Shown piece after piece: positions 34,661 to 39,080 of a DNA stretch of 64,000 nucleotides. The DNA is taken from assembly GCF_000022325.1 (NCBI RefSeq), contig NC_012034.1:2293501-2357500 (forward strand). The letters are read 5' to 3'. This stretch comes from Caldicellulosiruptor bescii DSM 6725. Its GTDB lineage: Bacteria > Bacillota > Thermoanaerobacteria > Caldicellulosiruptorales > Caldicellulosiruptoraceae. The notes under the pieces were generated by a model, which was not told where the DNA came from, searched no databases, and saw only the letters and a program-made list of their open reading frames with translations. Position 1 is the first letter of the stretch; every line of letters starts with the position of its first letter. A program made the position numbers and the translations under genes.

Positions 34661-34791
34661 CTTTATTCTACCATACCCAGCTTGTATAATTATTTTCGTA
34701 AGACACATCAAAAAAATTCCAATAAAATAACAACCAAAGTTTCGGTTAACATAAGATTTTGAGTATCATTATTAAAATAACATTTCCAATA

Positions 34792-35120
34792 CTTCCTCTT
34801 TGAGAGGAAAGCAGCGCAAAATCACTTCTCGCTGCTTGTGGCTTCTAATCTTTAGCCACTTTTTAAAACACTATCTTTAACGCTGGCCTCTTGCCAGCCT
34901 TGCTATCTTTGAATAATTCTTTCTTTCTGGGCATGGAATTTAATGTCCTTACCCCCCTGGGTGCGGATTTTTAAATCCCGCTTACCCGCAAACGAGACTA
35001 TTATTCCATTCCAGGTAAGTCTAAACTATTTAGCTGGTTGAGGCCAGCTTAAATCTTAGTTTAAGCTGGTTCCTCGTTCTACTGCCCAAGGTTGTATACT
35101 TACCTTGGCTCGGAATGGAA
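34792..35120 (+). ncRNA. Candidate IS110 bridge RNA / structured non-coding left end
   Basis: About 330 nt upstream of the IS110-type transposase are dense in stems: TTCCTC/GAGGAA (34792), GCAGCG/CGCTGC (34811-34835), GTGGCT/AGCCAC (34838-34859), CTGGC/GCCAG (34883-34897), GCGGATTT/AAATCCCGC (34963-34981), and a long-range pair in which CCATTCC and AGGTAAGT (35006-35020) face ACTTACCT and GGAATGG (35098-35118), enclosing two further hairpins (35032-35067). IS110 elements encode a bridge RNA in a long non-coding left end that guides target and donor recognition. Position and structure fit; RNA ends and loop guides are not resolved. Confidence 0.5.
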
Positions 35121-35171
35121 AACTCAAGCCCTAATTCGATTTTAAAACTACTTACGAGGAGGTCTTATGCT

Positions 35172-36465
35172 ATGAACTTAAAACCTATTGCCGGGATTGA
35201 TGTCTCCAAATATTTCAGCGAAATGGTGGTTATCTCTCCTGCAAATGAAATACTTGCACGCTTGACTATCCATCACAATAATCCCGCTGACTTTGAGAGG
35301 GCTATTGAAATCCTTAAAAAAGTTGAAGAGGATTTCGCGGCTCGCCCTATCATCGTCATGGAAGCCACAGGGCATTACCACAAAATCCTCTCCCGCTTCT
35401 TTACTTGTCGGGGGTGGGATGTTTCTATTATAAACCCCTACAATCTAATTCTATCAAAAATGCGGGAGAAAGTAAAAGTAAAAAATGATAAAAATGATGC
35501 CCTGTGGATTGCCTTAACCTTCAGGCTTACTAACTCTGCTATAGCACAACCTTCATCTGAAACCCTCGATTGCTTGAAAAACCTATGCCGTCAGTACTAC
35601 AACCTCAGCGATGAGTTGACCTCTTACAAATACAGACTTACTTCTGTCGTCGACCAAATTATGCTCAACTTCAAAGAGGTCTTCCCTGACATTTGCTCTA
35701 AAACATCTTTGGCTATACTTGAAAACTACCCTACTCCAAACGATATCCTAAGCGCTGACAGTGAAAAACTTATTTCCATCATTCAGCAAACTTCTAAAAA
35801 AAGCTACCAATGGGCTAAAGAAAAATATGATCTACTCATCGCGAAAGCTAAAGAATTTAAGCCTTTTTCTATCTCCAACTTGGCAAATGTTACTATGCTT
35901 AAAGTCTACATTAACATGGTCTTGACTTTGCAACAAAACATCGACAAAATTTTTGAAGCCATAAATCAGCTTGTTCAGCAGTCTTCACAGACTCAACCTT
36001 CAATATCCGAAAATATTAACCTTCTTCAATCTATCCCCGGCATAGGTTTTCTCACTGCTGCAACTATCCTTGCTGAAATAGGTGACTTCGAAAAATTTTC
36101 AAAACCTAATAAACTTGTTGCCTTCTTTGGCATTGATCCTTCCGTAAATCAATCCGGGCAATTTGTCTCTACATCAAACAAAATGTCTAAACGTGGCTCT
36201 AAAATCTTGCGAAGAATCTTATTTACAATTGCTCTTGCCAATATCAGAACCAAAAGAGATTCTAAGCCTTGTAATCCTGTACTATTCGAATACTATCAGA
36301 AAAAGTGCCAACAAAAGCCCAAAAAAGTTGCTATTTTTCGCTGTTATGAGAAAGCTCATATGCATTATCTTTGCTGTTATGCGTGATAAAAAGCCTTTTG
36401 AACTTAGAACTCCTGAAGAACATATTCAAAGATGCTTTAATAAGACTGCTGTTTATTGCGTATAA
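35172..36465 (+). pseudogene. IS110-family DEDD transposase, frameshifted near its 3' end
   Basis: RuvC-like N-terminal domain (IAGIDVSKYFSEMVVIS, then VMEATGHYHKI and KVKNDKNDALWIALT give the acidic residues) and C-terminal Transposase_20 domain (LLQSIPGIGFLTAATILAEI, SKRGSKILRRILF with the catalytic Ser). ATG 35172 follows AGGAGG. The written frame ends at 36386 with an abnormal tail. From the T5 run at 36334-36338 the neighbouring frame reads FAVMRKLICIIFAVMRDKKP, then FELRTPEEHIQ, and ends at 36465, which is the normal IS110 C-terminus. One extra T therefore breaks the gene. Confidence 0.85.
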
Positions 36466-36622
36466 ATAATTGTTTTATTAATGAAACATTGGTTAACCAT
36501 AATATGTGTCTAGCCTCCATATGTTATGTCAACTTCTAATGGATGGCTTACCTTCTTATACCCTTTTAAAAGAATTTTTTACCATAAAATGTTATCAAAA
36601 ATTTTTTAAAAAACTCTTGACT

Positions 36623-37480
36623 TTAATTAGCTGGTCTCTTTATATTAACATTAGTTGTGTTTCCACCAACGTAATTAATTATATTTGTCAATAATTTTAC
36701 AAACTCTTTCTGAGGTTTTGAAATACTCTTACATACATTTACATTTTTGTCTCCACTATTTATCCAAAAAACCTTCCCCTCCCCAACATTCCTGTAAACA
36801 AAAAGCGGTACATCCTTAGAATTTGAGTTTCTACCTTTACATAACACAAAAACATCTTCATTCCATTCTCCCCAACATATTTCTTCGTCATCTAGATAAA
36901 AAGTATCTTCCAAATTTGATAACAATGGATGATTTCTATATTCAGGATTTATCTCATATCTTACGGCTTCTTTGCATCTCTCAAAATTAGTAATTGTACA
37001 TCCAAATATCGCTTCTAATTCATTATTTCGGGTTCGCCTATAAATTATGTCATGTGTCCCTAAAAGAAATCCTCCTTTTTTTACATAATCGCATAATTTG
37101 TTTTGTATAATATTTCTTTCATTTTCGTTTTCTGATAATTTTGTAACATCAGTTACAATTAAAATTACAATATGTAATACTTTAGGATTTAATGGAAAAC
37201 AGAGGATTTCTCTAGGATGCCTTAATAAATAATAATTATAATTTGGACAACTCGTTTCTAAAGATGTTATTATATTCTTAGCAATATTATTACTGTCATC
37301 AATCCAAACTAATACGTACTTTTTTTTCTTTAGTTGATATAGAAGTATTCTTTTTATTTTACTAAACCAAATTTTAAAATTTTTATTGTTAAAAAATATA
37401 AACATTAATATAGTGACTATTACTTGCGATACTATGTTTATCAAATACTCTTTAAAAATTGTATAAAAAAACCTTAGCAT
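36623..37480 (-). CDS. Membrane-anchored protein with ThuA/GATase-like domain
   Basis: About 285 residues. An N-terminal membrane segment (IVSQVIVTILMFIFF) and basic region precede a soluble alpha/beta domain. KVLHIVILIVTDVTKL, then LCDYVKKGGFLLGTHDIIY and later VPLFVYRNVGEGKVFWINSG resemble class-I glutamine-amidotransferase-like/ThuA proteins, but no catalytic Cys-His pair is evident. I start at ATG 37480 because AAGGAGGTG precedes it. A hairpin also found before the SLH gene at 62721 lies about 45 nt upstream. Function unknown; it sits between two transposase relics. Confidence 0.6.
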   Translation of the reverse strand: MLRFFYTIFKEYLINIVSQVIVTILMFIFFNNKNFKIWFSKIKRILLYQLKKKKYVLVWIDDSNNIAKNIITSLETSCPNYNYYLLRHPREILCFPLNPKVLHIVILIVTDVTKLSENENERNIIQNKLCDYVKKGGFLLGTHDIIYRRTRNNELEAIFGCTITNFERCKEAVRYEINPEYRNHPLLSNLEDTFYLDDEEICWGEWNEDVFVLCKGRNSNSKDVPLFVYRNVGEGKVFWINSGDKNVNVCKSISKPQKEFVKLLTNIINYVGGNTTNVNIKRPAN

Positions 37481-37646: not shown

Positions 37647-39080
37647 ATGTTCAACACCAAACCTAAACAACTTTCATTTTTAGACTTATTTTCCCACCTA
37701 AAGGCTTTGGTTTCTTAACAACTCTTGATACCCTCTTGGGCTTGTTCAATAGATTTATCGACTTGTCACATTATATACCTTCTTCTTTCTACAAATGCTT
37801 ACTATAAACACTTTGGCAAGCATAGATACTTCTCCTTAGAATCTATGCTTCTGTGCTTCCTTGTCCAAAAATTACTCAAACTAAATACCCTAACACCGCT
37901 TCGCGCTGTTCTTCTTAACTCTTATGAACTCCGTTTATTTTGTAACTTAAATGGCAATGTCCCCTCTATTTCTACTTTCTCTCGCTTCAGAAAACTATTT
38001 AACAGTGAAATCCACAAACTCTTTCAAAATATCTCTATCCACGCACACAATATTTCTCTCCAACAATGCCCTCAAGCTTCTTCAATCTTAATCTTTGATA
38101 CAACTGGTATTGTCCCACAGGTCCGTGAAAATAACCCAAAATTCATTCATCTACTGCTGAAAAATACATCAAAAGCTAATCCTGAGCTGTCTTCTGATAA
38201 AATCTACTTCTGCTGTTTATTCTTCTTTGCCTAAAAGTGCTAACGCTAATCCTAACATCCGCCTTATGTTCACAAATGACCATTTCTGCTGGGCTTTGAA
38301 ATTTGCTGTCATCATAAGCGCTCTCGGTATTCCTTTAGCATTAGTTCCTCTGTTTAACTCTGATTCTACTTTTTCTGACCCACATCAAGAAAAAGCTATC
38401 TCCGACTTCTGCCGCTTTAATTCCTTCGCTCGAAACTTTATTCTCTTATATTCCCAAAAATTTTTCTACTTTCATCGCTGATAGCGCCTTGGATTCACAT
38501 AACATCTACTCCACTTTAATAAATTCTTTCAACTTCTCTAAAATAGTTATTCCTCTAAATACAAGAGCCTCTAAAAATACTATACCTACTTCAGATCCTA
38601 ATATCGTTATATCTGAAGATATGGTATCCCTATCTGCAAAAAGTTCAATAAACCTTTTAAACCCAAAGGCAAATGTCAGGGTAAAAATCGCTCTTTGCGC
38701 CTTAAATGGACTTGCCCTATGTCGCAATACAAAGATGGCAAACGTGTCTGCTCTTGCCCTCAACCTTGTACTACCTCTAAATCGGGGGCAATAGTTTATA
38801 TATCCTGACGATTTTCGCTCTTTCCCAGGTCTGAGCAGAAATTCTCAAGAGTTTTTAGACCTCTACAAAAAAGTGTCGCTGTAGAGCAGACTATTTTCCA
38901 CTTAAAATCCTACATGGGCTCTGATACTATTCTGTCCTTATGACCATATTTCTATTTTCTCTGATTTCTTGCTATCTGCCATTACTTTTTCGCTCTTGTT
39001 TATTCTCGCTCACAATATCAAACTCTATTGATTCTTTATTGACTATCAAAAAGCTTAACAAACTCAAAAAACTTATCGCT
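37647..39080 (+). pseudogene. Decayed DDE transposase of an IS4/IS1182-like element
   Basis: ATG 37647 has a good GAGGAGG site and reads KPKQLSFLDLFSHLKAL before the first stop near 37717. The same protein continues in other frames: LDTLLGLFNRFIDLSHYIPS (37730), YKHFGKHRYFSLESMLLCFL (37804), ILIFDTTGIVPQVRENNPKF (38088), then PKSANANPNIRLMFTNDHFC (38228) and further pieces to about 39080. At least five frameshifts or stops make it inactive. A hairpin CCTTCTAA/TTAGAAGG at 39145-39169 may mark its 3' end. Confidence 0.75.

Follow-up and report, generated by a model that had tools for sequence, protein, structure and literature searches.

The systems closest to the locus described here are the insertion sequence (IS) IS621, whose RNA of ∼177 nt is made from the junction promoter (PMC11208160) and whose synaptic structure holds two loops from two RNA molecules (PMC11208158), and ISEc21 with the IS1111/IS110 seekRNAs, in which, as is predicted here, an upstream non-coding region gives rise to a short RNA with matches to the top and bottom strands of the target (PMC11187229). 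In a 64,000-nt stretch of Caldicellulosiruptor bescii DSM 6725 (NC_012034.1, positions 2,293,501 to 2,357,500; hereafter the window, whose own numbering is used throughout), a non-coding region at 34792–35120 precedes a transposase frame, and an original prediction made from the letters of the sequence had proposed it as the candidate bridge RNA of an IS110-type element. The ends of the element, covariation, and matches between guides and flanks all support this proposal, and we conclude that the region very probably encodes the bridge RNA of an insertion sequence in the IS110 group. It is indeed structured, but its proposed limits do not quite fit the functional unit, whose guide-bearing core spans ∼34927–35118. 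The features that carry this reading are as follows.

34681 to 36637, + strand: complete IS110-group element, delimited by CT cores at 34681–34682 and 36636–36637 and by the limits of homology among copies
34927 to 35118, + strand: putative bridge RNA core, with target loop and donor loop (guide scans, covariation, duplex swap tests)
34949 to 34958, + strand: left target guide with core, TTACCCCCCT (first of 387 scan positions; swap test)
34959 to 34987, + strand: inner hairpin of the target loop (by-eye reading of single sequences shows complementary arms in each lineage)
34990 to 34996, + strand: right target guide with core complement, AAACGAG (first of 299 scan positions; swap test)
35006 to 35118, + strand: donor loop with 15-bp closing stem (15 of 26 pairs changed on both sides)
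35030 to 35039, + strand: left donor guide TTAGCTGGTT, repeating the right end TTAGCTGGT, which is followed by CT (sequence comparison)
35081 to 35090, + strand: right donor guide ACTGCCCAAG, whose CAAG pairs with the left end CTTG (tracks the start of the left end in eight lineages)

Aligning copies of the element, a check suggested with the original prediction, placed its ends at 34681 and 36637. The left end is present in eight genomes of the window's genus, at up to six copies per genome, and across ∼18 full copies in this genus homology begins at 34681 and ends at 36637, with unlike flanks and with CT at both ends of the element; because these limits enclose the noted region, it lies within the element. 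In all, ∼20 copies define the ends and CT cores. An uninterrupted version of the site occupied by one copy (L031) is contiguous in 11 other species, and the four species read have TTTGCCCCCTTAAA, or a sequence one base different, with CT present once, so that insertion occurred at CT without further duplication, as for IS110 elements. The guides sit in the left end, which is 491 nt long as compared with ∼172 nt for the right end, and the RNA is thus not placed after the gene in a long right end, as it would be in the IS1111 group. The frame that follows the folded region contains both IS110 transposase domains in Pfam (PF01548 and PF02371), an intact copy scores 243.7 bits against the NCBIfam model for IS110 RNA-guided transposases (NF033542), and the solved ISCro4 and IS621 transposases are related to it by sequence. 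Its D, E, D, D, and S positions align with those of ISCro4 (a DEDD RuvC domain and a C-terminal catalytic serine) and are kept in the window copy. A scan of contigs for relatives gave two useful ones, in a Clostridiaceae metagenome-assembled genome and in Herbivorax, and a scan of viral contigs found no relative. Named relatives include plasmid elements of Thermoanaerobacterium thermosaccharolyticum and Peptoclostridium acidaminophilum; one genus (g4) is called Thermoanaerobacter-like here, on the strength of a close match to the T. thermosaccharolyticum element.

The loops of the RNA had been expected to specify target and donor DNA, and matches between loops and flanks did exceed both chance and the matches given by other copies' guides. 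Each aligned left-end position was scanned against each copy's own flanks in both senses. Among 387 positions compared with the left flank, the stretch ending at 34958, in the sense of the target top strand, ranked first (match 0.64; runner-up 0.51; mean 0.26), and among 299 compared with the right flank, 34990–34996 as a reverse complement did (match 0.71; runner-up 0.56); by shuffle z-score alone a few other positions were similar, and the argument rests on the match fraction. Within the genus, own guide-flank pairs scored above swapped pairs both on the left (p = 4e-4) and on the right (p ∼1e-3). Individual copies illustrate the correspondence (a slash separates flank and core): a guide of CGCGCCCCCT is found with flanks GCCCC/CT, a guide of CACTCCT with ACTC/CT (two copies), a right guide of ACAAAAG with the exactly matching right flank CT/TTTGT, and, in L077, a right guide of GTAATAGAG with a right flank of CTCTATTAT. 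Two copies with an IS-split left end served as a blind check; beyond the insertion they read ...AACCTCC/CTTG and ...ATTCCTCC/CTTG, which is C-rich. The splitting insertion is itself 1.8 kb long with a DUF772-type transposase, and the same one is present in two copies at different sites with 99.8% identity (L139 at ∼1354 and L140 at ∼1377; L020, L032); the composite may have been mobilized as a whole, with cargo.

On the donor side, the left guide is nearly invariant, and covariation is shown by the right guide only, whose endings correspond to the starts of the element in all eight lineages compared (CAAG with CTTG, CTAG with CTAG, and CCAG with CTGG; label permutation 0.0036, with related lineages counted as independent). 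A damaged copy, L119, departs from this tracking. In several copies the right donor guide is ACUUGCAAG, which is close to the AUUUGCAAG of IS621, as assembled from residues named in the structure paper (PMC11208158).

The RNA at 34780–35170 has a folding energy of −120.1 kcal/mol, as compared to a shuffled mean of −87.1 (z = −5.7; 0 of 100 shuffles equal), which confirms the observation of a structured non-coding stretch before the transposase. An Rfam search returned no family at gathering score for the folded region, tRNAs being its only output. The 15-bp long-range pairing of the original prediction held: CCATTCC (35006–35012) pairs with GGAATGG (35112–35118) and AGGTAAGT (35013–35020) with ACTTACCT (35098–35105), with a bulge of 6 nt. 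Within this pairing lie the guide strands and a single hairpin of two tiers (GAGG-CCAGCTT / AAGCTGG-TT-CCTC), rather than clearly the two hairpins described earlier. Covariation across copies, which had also been suggested as a check, is strong across lineages and is seen at this pairing: among 19 distinct donor-loop sequences 88.9% of cells are paired, two-sided changes occur in 15 of 26 pairs, and none of 500 shuffles match, while slid versions of the pairing lower the paired cells to 32–50%. Inverted repeats are frequent in the ends of insertion sequences, and a fold of this kind could be a by-product of palindromic transposon ends or of a protein-binding DNA structure, with no guide RNA. 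We regard this as extremely improbable, as the pairs covary as RNA helices across distances of 100 nt and the loop stretches left unpaired correspond to target and donor with constant polarity.

A bridge RNA at this locus would differ from that of IS621 in its closing helices, which involve two further strands.

34927 to 34939, + strand: P1, the 5' strand closing the target loop (own-versus-swapped duplex test, 11 lineages)
35003 to 35015, + strand: S, the strand common to two competing closing helices (duplex test and folding)

In 11 lineages, the duplex of S with its own P1 averaged −14.5 kcal/mol as compared to −10.1 for swapped partners, and that of S with its own 3' strand −17.3 as compared to −14.0 (p = 5e-5 for each). 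The two helices compete because the full helices need the same bases, and shortened forms could exist side by side. Folded in isolation, the RNA is mostly predicted to take the donor-closed form, while the order of transcription would complete the target-closed form first. This competition may be a functional switch.

Expression of the RNA and the state of the element in the window bear on the following features.

34685 to 34690, + strand: TATAAT, −10 of the promoter rebuilt by the joined ends (read from sequence)
34793 to 34898, + strand: leader of four hairpins, at 34793–34809, 34810–34836, 34838–34859, and 34882–34898 (sequence and fold)
34891 to 34917, + strand: remnant of an internal promoter, TTGCCA, 15 nt, AATAAT (TTGCCA-16-TATAAT in intact copies)
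35172 to 36386, + strand: IS110 transposase frame, shifted near 36330 relative to intact copies, with the conserved C-terminus lost
36617 to 36622, + strand: TTGACT, −35 of the junction promoter (read from sequence)

An excised circle would join the right and left ends and thereby rebuild a predicted promoter, TTGACT-17-TATAAT, across the junction. Intact copies would have a second promoter directly before the RNA core, where one reads TTGCCA-16-TATAAT with a TG (11 of 12 matches); a Clostridiaceae relative has TTGGCC-18-TATAAT at the same place (10 of 12 matches), and −10-like hexamers occur at this position in most lineages. The match numbers of the promoter scanner are near chance in single sequences, and the support comes from positional conservation. 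Through the internal promoter, an integrated element could produce guide RNA without prior circle formation. The first loop of such an RNA, bound by the transposase, would pair with the genomic target (left guide with the bottom strand, right guide with the top strand) and the second with the joined ends of the element itself; strand exchange at the common CT core would be carried out by the transposase. The upstream hairpins included in the original prediction are present, but they form a leader outside the two-loop core; equivalents of the last two are found in some relatives. In the window copy one base is missing from the internal promoter, there is no scanner match there, and the conserved transposase tail of intact copies is gone. 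With a frameshifted transposase and a damaged internal −10, this copy is probably decaying and probably no longer mobile on its own.

The left target guide is AUCACCUCCU, or near it, in Thermoanaerobacter-like genomes and several clostridial relatives. AUCACCUCCU equals the 3' end of 16S rRNA (the anti-Shine-Dalgarno) and is found as GGATCACCTCCTTTCT three times in G014; a search for the 16S 3' end in the window's genome did not find it. Of the 13 insertions of Thermoanaerobacter-like copies, 10 are at ribosome-binding sites before an open reading frame, as compared to ∼15% of random CT sites, and in the window's genus, where the guides are mostly C-rich variants of the anti-Shine-Dalgarno guide and the targets often AGGGGG, the count is 8 of 18 (∼15% expected). 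Insertion would take place immediately upstream of ribosome-binding sites, with the element on the opposite strand to the gene, and it leaves the site intact. Probably, then, the ancestral left target guide of the clade was the anti-Shine-Dalgarno CACCTCCT, and it may have been selected because of its identity to the 16S tail. One could instead accept the bridge RNA and regard the preference for ribosome-binding sites as a by-product of C-rich CT sites in AT-rich genomes, without selection of an anti-Shine-Dalgarno guide. Most purine-rich AGGAGG runs in genomes of low GC content are ribosome-binding sites, and the window's genus combines drifted guides with a weaker preference; in several lineages, however, ten contiguous guide bases equal the 16S tail, more than CCTCC alone requires, and we consider the by-product account unlikely, if still worth taking seriously.

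A translational role for the left end may also be imagined: its CCUCC stretch would mask the ribosome-binding site of the transposase on the shared transcript, and its likeness to insertion sites would be secondary. In several relatives the guide (CACCUCCU) complements strong Shine-Dalgarno sites such as the GAGGAGG before the transposase (window 35156–35162), and small RNAs have been proposed as modulators of the ISPpu9 recombinase, in work cited in PMC11208160. Such a role as the main one is nevertheless very improbable, since the guides vary with the flanks from copy to copy, also where they are C-rich and have lost the match to the transposase site, and since it leaves the right target guide and the donor guides unexplained.

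Several points weigh against a bridge RNA with an anti-Shine-Dalgarno target guide. The copies are related, and the permutation p-values, including the 5e-5 floor that both guide-flank swap tests reach with relatives added, are therefore optimistic. The window copy, as a single copy, matches its own target at only 5 of 8 positions on the left (p = 0.027) and 3 of 5 on the right (p = 0.14). In other lineages alone, 3 of 7 insertions are at ribosome-binding sites, a weak excess (p = 0.07). The left end is far above the 177 nt of the IS621 RNA, and the guide core begins ∼240 nt downstream of the junction promoter, at odds with the length and start of the RNA in IS621, although these are particular to IS621 and not general to IS110 bridge RNAs. 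Finally, the left flanks of L002, L012, and L015 do not match their guides, apparently owing to another IS110-type element that abuts them.

That second, distinct element lies in the opposite orientation against the left end in L012 and L015, with an end remnant in L002 (L141, L142, L143); all three copies have the junction ACAGGAATG/CTTG, and the second element may target the end of the present one. Other copies are notable in their own right. L028 (1482–1960) is a 479-bp deletion derivative that resembles a miniature element, keeping both ends without the guide loops or a full transposase, and L016 is inserted within a spacer of a CRISPR array (repeat GTTTACATCCCTCATAGTTCAGATAAAAC), as read from both flanks. 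L002 and L024 were considered as transposase-free passenger elements and rejected, inspection showing truncated left-end remnants beside unrelated genes. At the catalytic Glu codon (window ∼35356–35364), ATGGAAGCC is replaced by ATCTCAAGCC in L012, L021, L015, and L022 and by ATTTCAAGCC in L034; the change is found on different backgrounds in three species, with more mosaic blocks close by, and is probably due to recombination between copies. Beside the element, window positions 37725–38800 hold DUF772 transposase fragments in several frames, a decaying adjacent insertion sequence.

Taken together, the observations lead us to suggest, tentatively and with less than even confidence, that a clade of RNA-guided transposons adopted an anti-Shine-Dalgarno target guide and a bridge RNA with mutually exclusive closing helices, each molecule serving target or donor. 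If so, any bacterial genome using the Shine-Dalgarno signal offers many sites directly upstream of genes, and a guide identical to the 16S tail would explain both the clustering of insertions ahead of start codons and the ability of an element whose guide is short and fixed to find usable sites whatever its host. A literature search limited to open-licence papers found no IS110 element reported as aimed at Shine-Dalgarno sites. Because guide and target change together across copies, the element tests bridge-RNA targeting independently and in a natural setting, that of thermophilic Bacillota; the shared-strand fold makes a testable claim about what commits a given RNA to the target or to the donor, and thermophilic, naturally reprogrammed systems would add parts for genome-writing tools.

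With IS621 (PMC11208160, PMC11208158), the element shares the transposase family, the CT core, a predicted left-end RNA, and a predicted junction promoter, as well as the order and polarity of the left target, right target, left donor, and right donor guides (LTG, RTG, LDG, RDG), a core within the guides, and a right donor guide of similar sequence. It differs in its extra leader hairpins and internal promoter, in a Shine-Dalgarno-like site in place of a repetitive extragenic palindromic (REP) element as target, and in target and donor closing stems that share a strand, whereas the target-binding loop (TBL, 34–98) and donor-binding loop (DBL, 110–177) of IS621 use separate strands. Natural reprogramming between related elements is a further likeness to ISEc21 and the IS1111/IS110 seekRNAs (PMC11187229), which have another target and a much shorter upstream region. 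The ISCro4 transposase (PDB 9t56) is the top-scoring solved transposase by sequence but only distant kin, and the comparison covered the protein. Judged by the sequence features tested, this is a bridge RNA of the IS110 group, in which the left end is enlarged, a second promoter is predicted, and a closing strand is shared; its clade has a ribosome-binding-site guide.
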